From Saccharothrix violaceirubra (GTDB lineage Bacteria; Actinomycetota; Actinomycetes; Mycobacteriales; Pseudonocardiaceae), in the NCBI RefSeq assembly GCF_014203755.1, contig NZ_JACHJS010000001.1, forward strand, positions 1,860,001-1,924,000: a stretch of 64,000 bases of DNA, written 5' to 3'. Below the pieces are notes generated by a model. That model was not told where the DNA came from. It did not search any database and worked only from the letters and a program-made list of their open reading frames with translations. A program made the position numbers and the translations under genes. Shown here in pieces: positions 1-7,373 of this stretch (position 1 is its first letter; each line of letters opens with the position of its first letter).

Positions 1-688
1 GGCGCACGGTCTGGGCCGCGTTGTTGATCAGGATGTCCAGCGGGCCGGCCTGGGCGACGTCGTCGGCGAGCCGGATGACCTGCGACGGATCGCGCAGGTC
101 GATGCCGACCACGCGCAGCCGGTGCAGCCAGTCCTCGCTGTCGGGCATCGACGCGAACCGGCGCACGGCGTCGTGCGGGAAGCGGGTGGTGATCGTCGTG
201 TGGGCGCCGTCGCGCAGGAGCCGCAACGCGATGTACATGCCGATCTTGGCCCGGCCGCCGGTGAGCAGCGCGCGGCGGCCGGAGAGGTCCGCGGACGCGT
301 CGCGCTTGCTCCGGTTGAGCGCGGCGCACTCGGGGCAGAGCTGGTGGTAGAAGGCGTCGACCTCGACGTAGCGGCGCTTGCACGTGTAGCAGCCGCGGGC
401 GCGCAGCAGGGTGCCCGCCTTGGCGCCGGGCTCCGGTTCGCGCAGCAGGATGCCGCGCGTCTCGTCGTCGATGCGCGACGGCGAGCCGGTCGCGGTCGCC
501 TCCGTCACCGCGCGGTCGGCGGCGAGTTCGGCGGCCCGGCGGTCGGCCTTGCGGCGTTTGCGCACGTCCTTGTAGACGCTGGAGGTCGCCCGGCGGATCG
601 CCTCCACGTCGGGGTGTTCGGTCGGGAGGTCCTGGACCTGGGCGAGCACCCGCAGGGCGATCTCCAGCTCGGCGGGGTCGATGGCCAC
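1..688 (-). CDS. SDR-family oxidoreductase with zinc-ribbon-like segment (3' part outside window)
   Basis: Only about the first 229 residues lie in the window; the gene continues past base 1. Residues 1-95 are a charged helical region. Residues 100-121 hold CxxC-x14-CxxC (C100, C103, C118, C121), a zinc-ribbon-like arrangement. A short-chain dehydrogenase Rossmann start follows (LLTGGRAKIG at 141-150) with the NNAA motif near residue 222. SDR enzymes use NAD(P)(H) for redox of alcohols/ketones; the substrate cannot be told. GTG at 688 is chosen because a TAGAGT -10 lies exactly 7 nt upstream, the usual leaderless spacing. It is divergent from the SLOG gene. The Cys-rich front end is not part of a minimal SDR. 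Confidence 0.8.
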   Translation of the reverse strand, partial: MAIDPAELEIALRVLAQVQDLPTEHPDVEAIRRATSSVYKDVRKRRKADRRAAELAADRAVTEATATGSPSRIDDETRGILLREPEPGAKAGTLLRARGCYTCKRRYVEVDAFYHQLCPECAALNRSKRDASADLSGRRALLTGGRAKIGMYIALRLLRDGAHTTITTRFPHDAVRRFASMPDSEDWLHRLRVVGIDLRDPSQVIRLADDVAQAGPLDILINNAAQTVR

Positions 689-695
689 GGCGAGC

Positions 696-757
696 ACTCT
701 ACCGGGGGCGAATGCGCCGACCGGACGGGTGAAATCCGGCACACCCGGCGCTAGGGT
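696..757. promoter_or_regulatory. Divergent pair of leaderless promoters
   Basis: Between the SDR gene and the SLOG gene there are two TAnnnT -10 elements facing apart: TAGAGT (complement of 696-701), 7 nt before the GTG at 688, and TAGGGT (752-757), 7 nt before the ATG at 765. Such spacing puts transcription start on the first base of the start codon in actinobacteria. No transcript data are available here. Confidence 0.6.
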
Positions 758-764
758 GCCCCGC

Positions 765-2330
765 ATGCCTACTCCAGGCCCTCGGGTGCGGCGCCTGACC
801 CACCCGGACGCGGAGGTGCGGGCACGTGCGCTCGGCCTCCCCCGCAACCGTCCCGCCCTGGTCGTGCTCGGTGTGCACGCGACCGTTCCGGCGCCGGGAC
901 CGCCCGCGGCCGGGTCGCCCGGCCTGTCACCGGGATCACCCGCCGCCGGACCGGCCGACCCGTCGTCGGGACCGGCCGGTCCACCCGGCGACCCGTCGGC
1001 TCGGCTCGCCCGCGGGTCGGACGGCCCGACCGGTTCGCCCGGCCGGACCTCGGCCCGGGTCGGTGAGGGTGACGATCCGTCGGCGAGGGCCGGTTCGGCC
1101 GACGACCGTCCGGGTGGGGACACCTCGGCCGGGTCCGGTGGTGGACCGTCGGCTCCGGGCGGCGGCGCGCGGGGCGGATCGGGCGAGCCGTCGTTCTGGT
1201 CGGCGCCCCTGACGGACAGCCTGTCGGCCGGCTCCGGCCGGGCCGCCGCGCACGCGGCGACCGGCCTCGACCGGGACACGGCCGCGTCGACGTTGACCGT
1301 CCTGCGGGCCGTGCTCGGCTACGCGGGCACGGCGGGTGTCGTCGTGGTCACGGCCGGTGCCGACACCGGCATCACCCACCTGCTGGGCCTGGCCGCCGAC
1401 GCCGTCGCGACCCTGCCCCGGTTGGTGGGCGTCGCGCCCAGCGGCCGGGTCGCCGAGGAGGGCGAGCCGTCGGCCGGCGAGGTCCGGCTCGAACCGCACC
1501 ACGACGCGGTCGTCCTGGTCCCCGGCTCGCGGTGGGGCGAGGAACTGCCCGCGCTGCCCCGGGTCGTGGACGCCGTGGTCCGGTCCCGGCGCACCGCCAC
1601 CGCGCTGCTGATCGGCGGCGACGCGGCCACCCGCGAGGCCCTGGCCGACCACCTGGGACGCGACCGCCCGGTGGTCGTGCTCGCCGGCACCGGAGGCCTG
1701 GCCGACGACCTCGCGCACGGCCGCGTCGACGACGACCTGATGGTCCTGGCCCGCGCCGGCCAGGTCTCGGTGATCCACGTCGACGAAGGTCCGGACCGCG
1801 TGGTGGCCGCCCTGAGCCGGGTGTTCGCCGACGAACCCCACGTGCCGGCACCGGTACCGGCGGTGTGGCCGCGCCTGCGTTTCCACCCGCCGCAGCGGCG
1901 CCCGATCGTGGACCCCGGCTTCCTGCTCGACTACCCGCTGTTGGCCGACGCCGTGCACGAGGCGGACCGCATCGTCGCGCCCGTGCTGCACGAGTGCGAG
2001 GTCGAGGCGGCCCGGGAACGCGAACGCGTCAAGCTGCGCACGGTCCTGGCACTGGGCGCCGGTTTCGCCACGACGACCTTCGGCGCCGTGCAGGTCTGGC
2101 TGGCCGACACCGCGTGGCCGGGCGTGGTCCTGGCCGCGTCGGGCGCGGTGGCCGCGATCCTGGTGGTGCTGATCCGTGACGGCGAGGACCCCGTGCACCG
2201 GACCAGGGCCGACCGCCTGCGGACCCTGTACTTCGACCACCTCGCCACGCCCCCGCCCGCGGCCGAGGACCGCGAGAACCGCCTGCGCGTTCTGACCGCG
2301 TCGGTGGCCGCCACCGCGACGACGAGGTGA
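765..2330 (+). CDS. TRPM-type SLOG (LSDAT) domain protein with C-terminal SLATT-like 2-TM module
   Basis: 521 residues. First SLOG strand ALVVLGVHA at 31-39; residues 41-140 are a Gly/Pro/Ser/Ala-rich, probably disordered insert; the fold then resumes with VVVTAGADTG (183-192, nucleotide-loop position), LEPHHD (222-227), LLIGGD (261-266) and a VVVLAGTGGLADDLA segment (283-297). This order matches the prokaryotic LSDAT/TRPM SLOG family, whose TRPM relatives bind ADP-ribose-like nucleotides. After a helical linker, two membrane segments at about 405-424 and 431-450 resemble a SLATT module. Families of this kind are predicted to sense nucleotide signals and act at the membrane in biological conflict. 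A leaderless promoter supports ATG 765. The next SLATT gene is 7 nt downstream, likely one operon. Function in this organism is inferred. Confidence 0.75.
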   Translation: MPTPGPRVRRLTHPDAEVRARALGLPRNRPALVVLGVHATVPAPGPPAAGSPGLSPGSPAAGPADPSSGPAGPPGDPSARLARGSDGPTGSPGRTSARVGEGDDPSARAGSADDRPGGDTSAGSGGGPSAPGGGARGGSGEPSFWSAPLTDSLSAGSGRAAAHAATGLDRDTAASTLTVLRAVLGYAGTAGVVVVTAGADTGITHLLGLAADAVATLPRLVGVAPSGRVAEEGEPSAGEVRLEPHHDAVVLVPGSRWGEELPALPRVVDAVVRSRRTATALLIGGDAATREALADHLGRDRPVVVLAGTGGLADDLAHGRVDDDLMVLARAGQVSVIHVDEGPDRVVAALSRVFADEPHVPAPVPAVWPRLRFHPPQRRPIVDPGFLLDYPLLADAVHEADRIVAPVLHECEVEAARERERVKLRTVLALGAGFATTTFGAVQVWLADTAWPGVVLAASGAVAAILVVLIRDGEDPVHRTRADRLRTLYFDHLATPPPAAEDRENRLRVLTASVAATATTR

Positions 2331-2337
2331 GACACCG

Positions 2338-3183
2338 ATGACCGACACCCCGCGCACCACCCGTGCCGACCTGGGCGGCCCGGCCGAGCCGCCGGCGAAG
2401 CCGACGAAGTCCCGCAGCCGGGCGAAAACCCCGACGACGAGCGAGGTGACCACCCGCCTGGGCCCGACGGACCCCGGGCGGACCTCGTCCGAGGCGGAAA
2501 CCGACCGTCCCGCCGCCGAGGCGACGGCTCGTGCCACGCCGAAAGCCGCCCGGCGGGCCGCTCCCGCGAAACCCCGCCCGTCCACCAAAGCCGCTGCGGC
2601 CAAGTCGTCCGCCGCGCCGGCCCGTCCCGACGCCTCCACCACCGCCGTCCCCGCGGCGGCCGACCCCACCGGAAACCCCACCACCGTGACCACGACCGAA
2701 GACCGCGCCTCCACCACCGCCACGGCGACCAGTTCGGCCACCGCCGCCGCCTGGGTCGGGTGGCACCTGTCCGACAGCGCGCTGGACGACCACCGCGAGC
2801 AGTTCGTCCGCGCCTACCTGCGCCATCGGGTCGGGGCCAAGCTCGGAGCCTTCGAGCGCGGCGGCCGGCGGTACGCGGTCGCGAAGCGGTGGACCACGGG
2901 GTTGACCGTCCTGCTCTACACCGCCGCCGCGGCGGCCGGTGCGGTCGCGGTCGCCGATCCCGGCCGGCGGGCGCTCTGGGGTTTCCTGGCCACGGTCGCC
3001 GCCGCGTTGGCCACGGCCGTCGCCGCCTACGAGGCCGCGTTCTCGTTCCGCGCCCAGGCCCGGCGTTCGGCGAGCGGCGCGGCGGTGCTCAACCTGCTCC
3101 AGGCGCACGGCGCGCCGTCGGGCACGGGCGGGGTCGCGGCGTTCCGGACGGAGGTCGAGAGCGTCCTGCGGCACTCGGACTGA
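2338..3183 (+). CDS. SLATT-like two-TM membrane protein with long disordered N terminus
   Basis: 281 residues. Residues 1-135 are Ala/Thr/Pro/Lys-rich and low complexity; the folded part starts near WHLSDSALDDHR. Two hydrophobic segments (about 185-204 and 213-232) are followed by a short helical tail, the layout of SLATT/DUF4231-type proteins, which are predicted pore or membrane effectors paired with SLOG sensors. ATG 2338 has a GAGGTGAGA ribosome site and starts 7 nt after the SLOG stop, so the two are probably co-transcribed and co-acting. Detailed family assignment needs a profile search; the two-TM topology and the partner are directly visible. Confidence 0.65.
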   Translation: MTDTPRTTRADLGGPAEPPAKPTKSRSRAKTPTTSEVTTRLGPTDPGRTSSEAETDRPAAEATARATPKAARRAAPAKPRPSTKAAAAKSSAAPARPDASTTAVPAAADPTGNPTTVTTTEDRASTTATATSSATAAAWVGWHLSDSALDDHREQFVRAYLRHRVGAKLGAFERGGRRYAVAKRWTTGLTVLLYTAAAAAGAVAVADPGRRALWGFLATVAAALATAVAAYEAAFSFRAQARRSASGAAVLNLLQAHGAPSGTGGVAAFRTEVESVLRHSD

Positions 3184-3232: not shown

Positions 3233-3255
3233 TAGTGCGGTGTGCGCACTAAAGT
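3233..3255 (+). promoter_or_regulatory. Interrupted palindrome over the -10 of the peptide/TPR operon
   Basis: TAGTGCG (3233-3239), five bases, then CGCACTA (3245-3251): perfect 7-bp arms. The right arm overlaps a TAAAGT -10-like hexamer (3250-3255) ahead of the peptide gene. Placement over the promoter is typical of a repressor operator. The cognate regulator is unknown. Confidence 0.55.
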
Positions 3256-3291
3256 CGTGACCCCCGCGTTTCGCCGGTCGTGGAGGTTTCC

Positions 3292-3387
3292 GTGACGATC
3301 AAGATGAAGAGCATCCGCATCCGCTGGGTGGGCCCGGTCGACCTCACCTCCGCCTCGTGTTCGGTGTGCCAGGTCCCGGCACGCTGA
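3292..3387 (+). CDS. 31-residue Cys/Ser/Thr-rich peptide, possible RiPP-type precursor or signal peptide
   Basis: GTG 3292 has a strong GGAGG (3282-3286) five bases upstream. The product has a basic N-terminal half (KMKSIRIRW) and a C-terminal half rich in small nucleophiles: LTSASCSVCQ then a short tail ending in Arg, giving two Cys in a CxxC spacing plus Ser/Thr. It has no hydrophobic signal peptide. Its TGA overlaps the ATG of the next gene (TGATG at 3385-3389), so the two are translationally coupled, the best sign that this very short gene is real. A basic leader and a Cys/Ser/Thr core would suit a modified peptide, but no cyclase, radical SAM or protease gene lies beside it, so that reading is speculative. 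Confidence 0.6.
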   Translation: MTIKMKSIRIRWVGPVDLTSASCSVCQVPAR

Positions 3388-5432
3388 TGGCGCACCACGT
3401 CTGGCTGCGGGCGTGCACCCCGACCGACCGGGCGCACGTCCGCGAGGCGCTCGACCTGCCACCACCGCTGCTCGTCGTGGACGCGCATCGGGGGCTGCGC
3501 GGCCCTTACACCGGAGCGGGCGCGCTCTTACGCGCCGTCGCGCCCGAGGCGTTCCGCCATGCCCCCGACCTCGCGGTCCGGCACAACACCGAGCTGGCCA
3601 CCGCCGCGCCCGAACTCGCGGTGCACGTCCCCACCGCGTGGTCGACCCTCGAGTGGACGGTCAGCGACGAACGCCGCACCCGCTTCTACTCCCGCCTGCA
3701 CACGCGCGGCATCGCCGACGGCATCACCGCCTTCCTGCGCACCCACCTCGACCAGGCCGACGGCCCGCGCACGCTCGTGGTCGACAACGTCCACCACGCC
3801 GACCAGACCGACCGGGAGTTCCTGGCCGTCCTGCTGCGCCGCATGGACCCGGCCCGTCTGACCGTCGTCGTCGGGACCGACCACGACGACCTCGACGACC
3901 CGCCCGGCCCGCTGTCCGTGTCGCTGCCGCGCGTGCTGCCCGAGTTCGCCCGGGTCGTCGACGGCCCGTCCGTCGCACGGCACCACGACGACCGCACCTA
4001 CGTCGACAGCGACGGCACGACCGACAACCCGGACGCGATCGCCGAGTACCGCGCGTTGCCCAAGGAAGAACGCGCCCGCCTGCACGACGAGCGCTGCGAC
4101 GCGCTGTACGCGTTGGGGGAGCAGTCGTTGGCGTTGGGCGCGATTCCGTTCCACGCCGAACGCGGCACGCGCCGCGCCACCCTCGGCGTCAACGCGCTCA
4201 AGCACGCCCTGGGCCACTGCCGCAAAGTCGGCCTCTACCACGCCGCCGCCGACCTGGCCCTGCGCGGACGTGCCCTGGTCGAACGCACCCGTGAACCCGG
4301 CCTGTGGTGGCACTTCACGGAAGGCGCCGCCGCCGCGCTGGCCACCTCCGGCCGCGCCGACGAGGCCGCGCTGGTCTACGACGAGGCCCGTTCGGTCACC
4401 GAGAACCCCGAGCAGCAACTGCGGTTGGCGTACGGGACGGCCATGCTGCACGTCCGCCACCTGCCCGCGCACCGCCGCGACCCGGCCCAGGCCCGGGGCT
4501 GGATGGACCTGGCGATCGCGTTGGCCGACCGGCTGACCGACCCGCGCGAGGCGGCGTTCCACGGCGTGTTCGCGCGCAACGGCCTGGCGTTGATCGAGGT
4601 CCGCGACGGGCACACCGACGAGGCGTTGCGCCTGGTCGACGCCGGACTGGCCGCGCTGGACCAGGAACACGCGCTGCTGCACTCCGTGCTGCGCCTCAAC
4701 CGGGGGCTGGTGCTCGCGGCGGCCGGGCGGTTCGAGGACGCCCTGGACGAGCACTTCGCGAACACCGTGCTCGACCCGGGTTTTCCCGAGCACCACTTCC
4801 ACGTCGGCACGCTGCTGCGCCGGCTCGGCCGCGACCGGGAGGCGATCGAGGCGTTCGAACGGGTGCTGACGTTGTCGCCGCCGTTCCCCGAGGTGCACTA
4901 CAACCTGGCCGACGCGTGGTCGGAGCTGGGCGACGCGCGGCGGGCGTTGGCCGAGTTCGACCAGGTGCTCGACCTGGACCCCGAACACCTGCGCGCCTAC
5001 GTGAACCGTGCGGCGTTACGCTTCGAGGTGGGGGACACGCACGGCGCGCGCGAGGACGTCGAGGCGGGCCTGCTCCTGGCGCCCGAGGACCCGCACCTGT
5101 TGTGCGTCAAGGCGAAACTGCTCGCCGAGGACGGTGACCTCCGGGCCGCCGCGGCGGTGCTGTCCACGGCCGTGCGCCACGACCCGTCGTTCGCCTCGGC
5201 GTGGGCGTTGCGCGGGCAACTGCGGTTCGAGACCGGCGACTTCACCGGGGCACTGGCCGACCTGGACCGCGCGGTGGCGTTGGACGACAGTCCCGAGGTC
5301 CGCTTCAACCGGGCCGTGGTGTTCGAGAAGGTCGGCCGGTACCGGGACGCCGCCGAGGACTACCGCGCGGTCGTGGACACCTACGAGGACGCCCGGTCGC
5401 GGTTGGACTTCTGCCTGCGGGCCGTGGGCTGA
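3387..5432 (+). CDS. Degenerate STAND/AAA-like protein with C-terminal TPR array
   Basis: 681 residues, ATG 3387 overlapping the peptide stop. The N-terminal part resembles a P-loop NTPase: LLVVDAHRGLRGPYTGAGAL at about 28-47 sits where a Walker A loop would be but has no GK[S/T], while VVDNVHHAD (about 131-139) looks like an intact Walker B. From about residue 240 to the end come repeated TPR helices (for example in the VHYNLADAWSELGDARRAL region), a protein- or peptide-binding scaffold. Coupling to the 31-residue peptide suggests the TPR part handles that peptide or its product. LuxR-type or FxsT-like TPR proteins are alternative relatives; no HTH was seen. Confidence 0.7.
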   Translation: MAHHVWLRACTPTDRAHVREALDLPPPLLVVDAHRGLRGPYTGAGALLRAVAPEAFRHAPDLAVRHNTELATAAPELAVHVPTAWSTLEWTVSDERRTRFYSRLHTRGIADGITAFLRTHLDQADGPRTLVVDNVHHADQTDREFLAVLLRRMDPARLTVVVGTDHDDLDDPPGPLSVSLPRVLPEFARVVDGPSVARHHDDRTYVDSDGTTDNPDAIAEYRALPKEERARLHDERCDALYALGEQSLALGAIPFHAERGTRRATLGVNALKHALGHCRKVGLYHAAADLALRGRALVERTREPGLWWHFTEGAAAALATSGRADEAALVYDEARSVTENPEQQLRLAYGTAMLHVRHLPAHRRDPAQARGWMDLAIALADRLTDPREAAFHGVFARNGLALIEVRDGHTDEALRLVDAGLAALDQEHALLHSVLRLNRGLVLAAAGRFEDALDEHFANTVLDPGFPEHHFHVGTLLRRLGRDREAIEAFERVLTLSPPFPEVHYNLADAWSELGDARRALAEFDQVLDLDPEHLRAYVNRAALRFEVGDTHGAREDVEAGLLLAPEDPHLLCVKAKLLAEDGDLRAAAAVLSTAVRHDPSFASAWALRGQLRFETGDFTGALADLDRAVALDDSPEVRFNRAVVFEKVGRYRDAAEDYRAVVDTYEDARSRLDFCLRAVG

Positions 5433-5479
5433 GATTACGGGTCGACAGGGTCGCGGGCGGGCCGGAAGAATGCGGCGCC

Positions 5480-5890
5480 ATGTCCGGAATCATGTCGAGG
5501 TGGGCGGTACAGCGGGACCACGCGGTCGAGGGCGCGGTGACCGCCGAGCAGGTCGAGCGGTGGATCGACGACGCGTGCACGACCTACCTCGACCTGTGCC
5601 CGCTGCTGACGACCTACGACGTGCGCCGCGCGGTGCTGGCGATCCCGGACCCCGGCCTTTTCGGCACCCCGAACGAGATGACGGTGACCGCGAGCGCGAC
5701 CGAGGTGCGGCCGGGGGCGTTCACGCTGTCGGTCCGGCTGCGGCCGTTCGGCGGTGGCAACGACACGCCCGCGAACGTCACGTGCGTGGTCACGCTGACC
5801 GACCCGGAGACCGGCGCGCAGCGTCCCGTGGGGGACGACATCCGCGACCAGTTGATCGCGATCGAGCACGGCGCCCGTCACTTCAACTGA
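5480..5890 (+). CDS. Small hotdog-fold thioesterase-like protein
   Basis: 136 residues from ATG 5480. An N-terminal helix (VTAEQVERWIDDA) is followed by strand-rich sequence such as MTVTASATEVRPGAFTLSVR and TCVVTLTDPETGAQRPV, which suggests a hotdog-type acyl-CoA thioesterase fold; a Glu-based catalytic site cannot be placed with confidence. It lies 47 nt after the TPR gene, with no clear terminator between them. The thioesterase call is tentative; a strand-rich hypothetical protein is the safe minimum. Confidence 0.45.
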   Translation: MSGIMSRWAVQRDHAVEGAVTAEQVERWIDDACTTYLDLCPLLTTYDVRRAVLAIPDPGLFGTPNEMTVTASATEVRPGAFTLSVRLRPFGGGNDTPANVTCVVTLTDPETGAQRPVGDDIRDQLIAIEHGARHFN

Positions 5891-5905
5891 CAGGCGCCGC
5901 GCCGC

Positions 5906-6121
5906 CTATGCCTGTTCGACGGCGACGAACAGGTCCGTGAACTCCATCGGGCGCAAGGCGGACAACGCGCCCGCGATGAACGCGGGTCCGGGAAGGAGTT
6001 CTCCTTCCCGGATCCGCTTCACCGTCGAGCGGTGCACCCGCATCGCCCGTGCCACGGCGGCGTCCGAGCGGAAACCGGCCAACGCCATGGCTTTCGCGAA
6101 CGTGTCGAAGCGGAGGACCAC
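5906..6121 (-). CDS. Small XRE-like helix-turn-helix protein
   Basis: 71 residues, nearly all one helix-turn-helix: GFRSDAAVARAMRVHRSTVK is a Cro/CI-type recognition region, followed by a helical tail. It would bind DNA as a small regulator. It is convergent with the hotdog gene and lies 43 nt downstream of a 63-residue gene on the same strand, so the two could be co-transcribed. No effector domain is present. Confidence 0.65.
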   Translation of the reverse strand: MVLRFDTFAKAMALAGFRSDAAVARAMRVHRSTVKRIREGELLPGPAFIAGALSALRPMEFTDLFVAVEQA

Positions 6122-6164
6122 GGTGTAACCGTCCGCCGGGGGCGTTTCCGGGGGCGGGCCACCG

Positions 6165-6356
6165 TCAGCGCGCGGTCAGTTCGCCCTGCGCGGCCCGGAT
6201 CACCCCGGCGAACTTGGTGAACGCCTTGGGCGTCATCGCGAGGTCGAACGTGCTCCCGAACCCGATCTGCACCTGGTCGCCCACGACCTCGAACGTGATG
6301 GGCGCACCCTCCCTGATCTGCACGTAGGCGCTCGTGTCCACGTCGTTCAGCCCCAT
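6165..6356 (-). CDS. Small hypothetical protein divergent from the DUF5753 regulator
   Basis: 63 residues from ATG 6356 (MGLNDVDTSAYVQIREG). The sequence is strand-rich (ITFEVVGDQVQIGFGSTFDL) with a short C-terminal helix. No family is recognised. It is divergent from the HTH/DUF5753 gene across about 108 bp, and small genes in this position are often controlled by the neighbouring regulator. Function unknown. Confidence 0.5.
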   Translation of the reverse strand: MGLNDVDTSAYVQIREGAPITFEVVGDQVQIGFGSTFDLAMTPKAFTKFAGVIRAAQGELTAR

Positions 6357-6464
6357 GTGATGCCTTCTCTCCGAATGGTTTTTGAGCCCTCTTTTGAAGC
6401 TCAAGCGAGACTCTGGCAGATTGAGCTTCACCTCGCCAGTCGCCCAAAGGGAGTAGTGAGAGCT

Positions 6465-7373
6465 GTGGAATACGGACCTGGCACCCTTGTCACCATGCTT
6501 GACGACGACGACCCCGGTCCGATCGTGCAGCGCCTCATCTTCGGCGCCGAGATGGCCGAACTCCGAGGCAAGGCCGGGTTTTCGGTGGACGAGGCCAACG
6601 TGACGATCGGCGAGCGACTGGCCGTGAATCCGGCCGCGAAGCGCGGCTGGTACCGGGGGAAGCTGGGCAAGATCGAGAACGGCGACCTGAACATCAGCGA
6701 CGTCGAACTGGATGTCGCGTTCGCGCTCTATGGGGTCGGTGGCTCGAAGGCGAGCGAGATCCGCACGCTCGCGGTCGAAGCCAGGCGGCGGCAGACCCCG
6801 ATCCGTGTGCCGGACCACGGGCGCAAGTACATCTGGCTCGAACGGGCCGCGGACGAGATTCGCCAGTTCTTCGCCATCACGGTGCCGGGCAACCTGCAAA
6901 CCGCCGAGTACGCGTTGATGCAGATGAGCACCAGCCTCGTCATGGCTCCGGTCGACCTGCCGGAAATGGCCGCTGGGCGCGTCGCCCGGGGTGATCGGTT
7001 CGCCGCGGACGAAAAGCGTGTGCTGCACACCGTGATCGGAGAGGCCGCGCTGCGCACGCCGATCATGAACCCCGGCGTCATGCGTGGGCAACTCGACCGG
7101 CTGCTGGCTCTTGCCGAGCGTCCGAACATCACCATCCAGGTCGTTCCGATGGAGGTCGGGCTACAAGCGTCGCTCGAACACTCCTACTCCCTTCTCCACA
7201 TCGCCCGTGCCAGGACGACTATCGTCTACGTCGAGAGTCTGACCACGGCGGACTACCTGCCCCGACCGCCGCACACCACCACGTACGGCCTGGCCTTCGA
7301 GAAGGCGCAGAGTCTCGCGTTGGGACCGGCCGCCTCGGTCGACTTGATCCGTTCGATCTCGGGCGACCTGTAG
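6465..7373 (+). CDS. HTH regulator with C-terminal DUF5753 (Scr1/SCO4441-like)
   Basis: An N-terminal XRE-type HTH (LIFGAEMAELRGKAGFSVDE) is followed by a DUF5753 region with its usual features (WLERAADEIRQFFAITVPGN, the LQTAEYA segment, and VVPMEVGLQASLEHSY near the end). The family usually works with a DUF397 partner, here 17 nt downstream; such pairs have been described as antitoxin-like regulators affecting secondary metabolism in Streptomyces. The start is uncertain: GTG 6465 fits the GGGAG at 6449-6453, while ATG 6495 gives the length typical of the family. An upstream GTG at 6456 is too close to that ribosome site. Confidence 0.85.
   Translation: MEYGPGTLVTMLDDDDPGPIVQRLIFGAEMAELRGKAGFSVDEANVTIGERLAVNPAAKRGWYRGKLGKIENGDLNISDVELDVAFALYGVGGSKASEIRTLAVEARRRQTPIRVPDHGRKYIWLERAADEIRQFFAITVPGNLQTAEYALMQMSTSLVMAPVDLPEMAAGRVARGDRFAADEKRVLHTVIGEAALRTPIMNPGVMRGQLDRLLALAERPNITIQVVPMEVGLQASLEHSYSLLHIARARTTIVYVESLTTADYLPRPPHTTTYGLAFEKAQSLALGPAASVDLIRSISGDL

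Follow-up and report, generated by a model that had tools for sequence, protein, structure and literature searches.

A short peptide paired with a pseudo-STAND/TPR protein in Saccharothrix violaceirubra: a putative protease-less form of a RiPP-like cassette

Introduction

In epipeptide systems, a radical-SAM epimerase is encoded beside the peptide. In PMC10885120, the epipeptide maturation protease EpeP/YydH is described as a membrane HExxH M50-type protease encoded with a small peptide gene, and the M50 membrane protease TglG/TmoG of the pearlins as having its site of action at the C-terminus of a scaffold peptide. RRNPP systems, as set out in PMC10075063, consist of a gene for a propeptide with a secretion signal beside a TPR receptor of 250-500 aa, with some members using another exporter.

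We analysed a stretch of 64,000 nucleotides from S. violaceirubra (hereafter the window), in which a first-pass annotation had singled out a short peptide gene and a gene for a TPR protein as one unit belonging to no named system. Consistent with the latter view, we found no name for the pair and recognised no paper describing the related cassette in the literature searched, whose coverage leaves out most subscription papers. In its full form, this cassette comprises a short precursor-like peptide, a PqqD-like and M50-like membrane metalloprotease that we call F1, and a pseudo-STAND/TPR protein.

As with EpeP/YydH, the cassette encodes a small peptide together with a membrane protease of the M50 type that carries an HExxH motif, and the YydH/LiaK model matched one of 38 F1 proteins (E 0.0055). 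Unlike EpeP/YydH, it has a TPR partner and a protease with an N-terminal PqqD-like domain, and no F1 was found in the window genome. It resembles TglG/TmoG in its membrane M50-like protease, which would act at the C-terminal end of the peptide, and differs in having the TPR partner and the PqqD-like domain, with no further gene family in more than 12 of 73 loci. Like an RRNPP pair, the window peptide gene directly adjoins a TPR gene; in contrast to the receptors described in PMC10075063, the window TPR protein is far longer (681 aa), has no DNA-binding domain and carries a pseudo-STAND front half, and no hydrophobic core was seen by Kyte-Doolittle analysis in the front of the cassette peptides. 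In its workings the cassette is akin to RiPP or epipeptide-type systems while fitting no family's full definition, and we would apply the label RiPP to it by analogy. The window copy is reduced, in that a homologous precursor-like peptide is present and no F1 was found in the locus or the genome.

Results and Discussion

The short peptide gene occupies positions 3292..3387 of the forward strand, where a GTG start at 3292 opens a frame of 31 aa (VTIKMKSIRIRWVGPVDLTSASCSVCQVPAR) that ends with TGA at 3385-3387 and shares its last base with the ATG of the TPR gene (3387). This one-base TGATG overlap, which was also seen in one relative (G009), and a GGAGG ribosome site at 3282..3286 of the same strand, kept in all 4 members of the window's clade, were confirmed in the sequence and fit the translational coupling proposed in the first-pass annotation. 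Within the peptide, MKSIRIRWVGPVDLTSA is the part conserved across the family and the tail is the variable part, the family pattern being MKKI-x-(V/I)-RK-x-G-x-V-(R/K)-LT followed by a variable tail. The window peptide matched the profile of the peptide family with an E-value of 1.3e-4, while neither it nor 7 relatives matched any Pfam or NCBIfam model, those of precursor families included, at E up to 1. Searches with six short peptide strings found 0 papers containing them in the literature covered.

We next measured how often the peptide accompanies the TPR gene. Among 60 related genomes, 34 matched the TPR protein at E 1e-3; 14 of these matches, the window included, were near full length, and the others were partial and mostly confined to the TPR part. 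A scan of a named genome collection with two sequence patterns, which samples the family, supplied 75 loci (L059-L133), giving together with the window and seven loci from relatives a working set of 83; six duplicates on the same contigs as L059, L060, L072, L095, L119 and L121 were removed. Three loci (L076, L132 and L133) lack upstream sequence, leaving 80 that were testable; L133, an Acidobacteriaceae fragment matching the TPR part only, may not belong to the family. By a search with the peptide profile, 78 of the 80 were preceded by a homologous short peptide, a tally that is not blind for the 17 of its peptides used to seed the profile, and whose counts are not independent since many loci are near-relatives (e.g. 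seven Herbidospora loci with identical peptides). The 2 loci whose TPR gene had no peptide upstream by this search came from Umezawaea (L065) and Plantactinospora (L131). Profile matches down to E 0.74 all lay upstream of F1 or the TPR gene, some in tandem arrays, and the first match at another kind of place appeared at E 1.2; the weakest accepted peptides (L059, 0.7; L106, 0.06; L095, 0.009) were supported by position as well.

The peptide frame stands above chance because 78 of 80 loci carry a homologue and because its first 17 codons have low pN relative to pS. Both the peptide (3292-3387) and the TPR protein (3387-5432) are genuine and evolve together, in agreement with the earlier suggestion that they form one unit. 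TPR homologues without the peptide, or a frame not conserved as protein, had been named as findings that would speak against this pairing; instead, the peptide was present at 78 of 80 loci and its front was conserved as protein. The description of the peptide as precursor-like likewise held up.

A gene of about 1.2 kb for the ~400-aa membrane protein F1 separates the peptide and TPR genes in 54 of the 78 peptide-bearing loci. F1 directly precedes the TPR gene in 49 of the 75 loci from the named collection, and the full three-gene cassette is found in 54 of the 83 loci, from Actinomycetota and four Bacillota. Thus, the first-pass statement that no maturation enzyme lies beside the peptide is correct for the window, in whose genome none was found, and incomplete for the family. 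The N-terminal part of F1 aligned with 26 PqqD-family domains from relatives (hhalign 95.8%, E 6.7e-9, 72 columns), and one F1 (in G001) reached Pfam's PqqD cut-off. The motifs HExxH and TDxY were present in 38/38 aligned F1 proteins. The Pfam models PqqD and Peptidase_M50 each matched 11 of the 38, mostly below cut-off, with best E-values of about 9e-4 and 7e-4, respectively. NCBIfam matches were weak, comprising the lasso PqqD model in 5/38, the YydH/LiaK model in the single protein mentioned above and a daptide protease model in 1/38 (E 0.31), and unrelated membrane models matched at similar E-values. A search of PDB sequences with F1 returned nothing significant, the best match being TfuB1 (E 0.46). 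In the one annotated record examined, the gene is labelled 'hypothetical protein', and its identity as F1 was supported at E 5.9e-132. Judged by these motifs and alignments, F1 appears to resemble M50/YydH-type maturation enzymes, with a PqqD-like (RRE-type) domain in front.

Two F1 searches found no F1 in the window genome (G000) or in G011. The one covering these two genomes matched nowhere, and the other, run within the genus using another F1 alignment, matched in 11 of 25 genomes; G009 and G023 contain only a distant F1 relative, elsewhere in the genome. Nine genomes whose TPR gene lacks an adjacent F1 were searched, of which 4 had no F1, 3 had a close F1 elsewhere and 2 had a distant one. 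No F1 was detected in the genomes of Herbidospora mongoliensis, Microbispora oryzae, Acrocarpospora catenulata and Plantactinospora alkalitolerans, and close F1 genes away from the TPR locus were found in Umezawaea (L065; E 2.9e-150) and two Streptosporangium. For Streptosporangiaceae without an adjacent F1, 3 of the 8 genomes searched had none at all. Since F1 is missing beside the TPR gene and yet present elsewhere in some of these genomes, 'loss' here refers to the locus and, for some lineages, to the genome as a whole.

The TPR protein (681 aa; 3387..5432, forward strand) has C-terminal TPRs at about residues 413-663, a Walker B-like site at about 130-144 and the motif GPY at 39-41. Pfam gave a weak AAA_16 match at residues 109-161, below the family cut-off, and no DNA-binding domain. 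Compared with ten STAND-like ATPases, the front half showed an alignment confined to the surroundings of Walker B (hhalign 96.8%, 57 columns). The family is like STAND/LuxR-type ATPases in this region and unlike them in the absence of a P-loop: Walker A, GxxxxGK[ST], occurs in 0 of 57 family proteins, in line with the first-pass observation of a Walker B-like site without the Walker A lysine. GP is present in 57/57 and GPY in 56/57, and we infer that GPY stands where the P-loop was. The front half can be read as a dead NTPase domain, probably kept for binding. Of 394 genomes sampled from the class, at least 19 had matches to this front domain at E 1e-16 or better, a lower bound since only six candidates were scored per genome. 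The first 271 residues matched nothing among PDB sequences (best E 0.32), and the TPR profile matched generic TPR proteins there. PADLOC gave only weak matches of the TPR region of the window protein to two candidate models (E 6.7e-5 and 0.0032), and these were not accepted.

A tree built from 57 TPR proteins out of the 83 loci requires four changes of F1 state, or three without the peptide-less rows. The window groups with three Saccharothrix-group loci, then with Umezawaea and then with Actinosynnema, on starred branches; the Umezawaea locus has the TPR gene alone and the Actinosynnema locus the full cassette. We infer that the three-gene form is ancestral in the window's clade. When genes around 73 loci were called with a simple gene caller and clustered, the TPR family was present at 66 loci, F1 at 45 and every other family at 12 or fewer; families at 9-12 loci belong to the Streptosporangiaceae loci, and the remainder reach at most 8. 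Family clustering revealed no prominent modifying-enzyme family beside the cassette. Radical-SAM genes were absent from the Pfam-scanned neighbours in the window, and no such cluster was noticed in the 73 loci by the same clustering. A flavin reductase occurs near 6 loci and an HTH gene near 4, one representative of each having been scanned.

Tails, counted from roughly residue 17 of the conserved block onward, contain both Cys and Tyr in 54/54 F1-bearing peptides among the 83 loci. Among the 24 peptides at loci without an adjacent F1, Cys is found in 4 and Tyr in 1, from Solihabitans (L099), which has kept both residues. For Cys, the association with F1 has a Fisher p of 5e-15 with relatedness ignored. 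Since the tree holds only three independent F1 contrasts, the 54/54 pattern does not represent independent events; across these contrasts Tyr follows F1 in 2 and Cys in 1 to 2, with none running in the opposite direction. A plasmid locus outside the 83 (L207) has F1 together with a peptide (front MRKISVRRTEPIKVTSA) that lacks both residues, bringing the count to 54/55. The association of Cys and Tyr with F1 is broad, reflects few events and is not absolute. The Cys pair that the first-pass annotation had taken as a key feature was rejected as defining, since it is not conserved within the window's clade, whose 4 peptides have 2, 1, 1 and 0 Cys.

We lean toward a reading in which the window holds a protease-less form of this RiPP-like cassette, the TPR protein binding the peptide front, F1 cutting the tail and the three-gene form being ancestral in the clade; the part of this reading that concerns homology and the missing F1 is, taken by itself, highly probable. 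The TPR/pseudo-NTPase protein would recognise and bind the basic conserved front. At loci with F1, the PqqD-like domain of this protease may present the peptide to the HExxH site, which would cut, and perhaps export, the short tail, usually with Cys and Tyr, as the product. The proposed loss of F1 in the window lineage would have left the tail free to drift, while continued binding by the TPR protein would have held the front under constraint. Peptide and TPR protein would be kept in step by translational coupling.

Patterns of substitution bear on this proposal and on a competing one, in which the loss of F1 left the peptide functionless in the window lineage, with the TPR protein repurposed or also on its way out. 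In the window's Saccharothrix clade, which lacks F1 at the locus, the front is constrained and the tail is drifting. In the tail, pN (0.25-0.57) is similar to pS (0.32-0.69), Tyr is absent from 4/4 clade members and Cys from 1/4, Umezawaea keeps a TPR gene without an adjoining peptide, and G007 and G012 contain TPR fragments without an intact gene, all as expected of a decaying remnant. In contrast, the first 17 codons are constrained among the three closest relatives, which are sister genomes (pN 0.05-0.11 vs pS 0.36-0.37), the ribosome site and GTG start are retained in the clade, and the TPR gene has a dN/dS of about 0.31-0.45. Pairs that include the window are looser over the same codons (pN 0.28-0.35 vs pS 0.52-0.64), the window peptide being more diverged than its sister peptides. 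On balance, we consider decay unlikely, though deserving of weight. Constraint was also evident in Streptosporangiaceae without F1, where the whole 24-aa peptide had a pooled pN of 0.049 vs a pS of 0.355 over non-independent pairs from 12 of 19 such loci, the other seven lying outside the test.

We likewise questioned whether the window encodes a signalling pair of the RRNPP kind, in which the peptide would be exported and trimmed before its re-import and binding by the TPR protein. The small peptide does adjoin a TPR protein, relatives have a membrane protease, and genes for BTAD/SARP-type regulators lie near 13 of 73 loci (two clusters of 8 and 6, with one representative of each confirmed by Pfam), as do HTH genes near a few. 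However, hydropathy analysis showed no secretion-type hydrophobic segment in the peptides: a 9-residue Kyte-Doolittle mean of at least 2.0 was reached in 1/78 (the G009 tail, 2.48), with a median of 0.92. Moreover, the TPR protein exceeds the 250-500 aa of RRNPP receptors and is devoid of a DNA-binding domain, and no single regulator family is common to the loci. These observations make signalling of this kind quite improbable. That the small frame is a mere translational leader for the TPR gene, as the TGATG coupling in the window and G009 might suggest, is very hard to credit given the amino-acid conservation of the peptide front and the F1 gene that separates peptide and TPR gene in 54 of 78 loci.

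Returning to the cassette reading, we tentatively extend it to a new kind of intracellular peptide-partner pair, in which a dead STAND/TPR protein would read the conserved front of a 24-31-residue peptide; such a pair may derive from a maturation cassette of two phyla and survive the loss of its protease. As examples of the pair without the protease we offer the Streptosporangiaceae, with 24-aa peptides under strong constraint and no protease in three genomes, and the window. Repeated protease loss seems to separate two roles of the peptide, that of a front under constraint even where only the TPR protein remains and that of a Cys/Tyr tail kept in nearly all protease loci seen, and leader recognition and product formation are thereby separately testable. 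The cassette, whose peptide matched no family model and whose protease is called hypothetical in the one annotated record examined, also directs genome mining towards peptides overlooked by current models.

Upstream of the peptide gene, the dyad TAGTGCG-N5-CGCACTA (3233..3251) overlaps a -10-like TAAAGT (3250..3255, forward strand) that lies within CTAAAGTCG, is kept in all 4 clade members and marks a putative promoter. The first-pass annotation had interpreted this dyad as a palindromic operator; the sequence is indeed present, but the operator reading was rejected, given the frequency of such dyads in shuffled sequence and the lack of conservation. When the 108-bp intergenic region was shuffled 2000 times with dinucleotides preserved, 135 shuffles (6.75%) held a 7-bp dyad with a spacer of 0-12, and an equally good one occurs in 196 of 1184 108-bp windows of the 64 kb. 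The dyad pattern has one site in the window genome and occurs in 0/24 other genomes of the genus, while a backwards control pattern occurs in 2/25; an alignment with three relatives showed nothing retained in the upstream region except CTAAAGTCG and the ribosome site.

Several further observations concern the surroundings of these loci. At 681-3183, the window contains a SLOG gene (LSDAT_prok, E 2.3e-47) and, behind it, a SLATT-like gene that matched NCBIfam SLATT_1 below cut-off (E 1.5e-7), a pair of the conflict-system type. As relatives of both genes are present in two of three clade relatives (L032 and L033) and missing from the third (L034) and from the Umezawaea and Actinosynnema loci, we regard the two genes as neighbours rather than part of the unit. 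Downstream of the TPR gene lie a 136-aa protein with no Pfam or NCBIfam match (5480-5890), then a small HTH-like gene and a DUF5753/HTH gene (5906-7373; E 2.7e-41).

Seven Herbidospora loci (L097, L101, L102, L108, L110, L112 and L129) encode peptides identical over 24 residues from DNA with silent changes, each directly preceding the TPR gene with no protease beside it. In Tumebacillus flagellatus (L090, 150-8178), four tandem peptides found by profile and a fifth found by eye accompany two F1 and two TPR genes, the peptide fronts being alike and the tails clearly different; tandem peptides also occur in Actinacidiphila (L084) and Actinoallomurus (L075). Of 126 matching plasmid records, a single one exceeded 80% cover; it holds the Streptomyces locus L207, where peptide, F1 and TPR gene stand in the same order at 3514-7157 amid transposase genes, as profiles confirmed. 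The TPR-homologue fragments of G007 and G012 (L138 and L139) are signs of repeated loss. Other genomes of the genus contain distant F1 relatives that likewise follow short KK-type peptides, without an adjoining TPR gene. At L134, L135 and L137, these peptides are of the KKLVVRxLE type, with Cys but no Tyr, and no TPR gene was found beside the F1 relative, which at L135 matched Peptidase_M50 just under cut-off (E 1.4e-5). At L136 (6467-8759), a distant F1 relative adjoins both a ThiF-family protein of 361 aa (E 3.1e-40), which also matched PqqD weakly, and the short peptide MENTKKKVSVKIRKLEKLETTVVRNDG.
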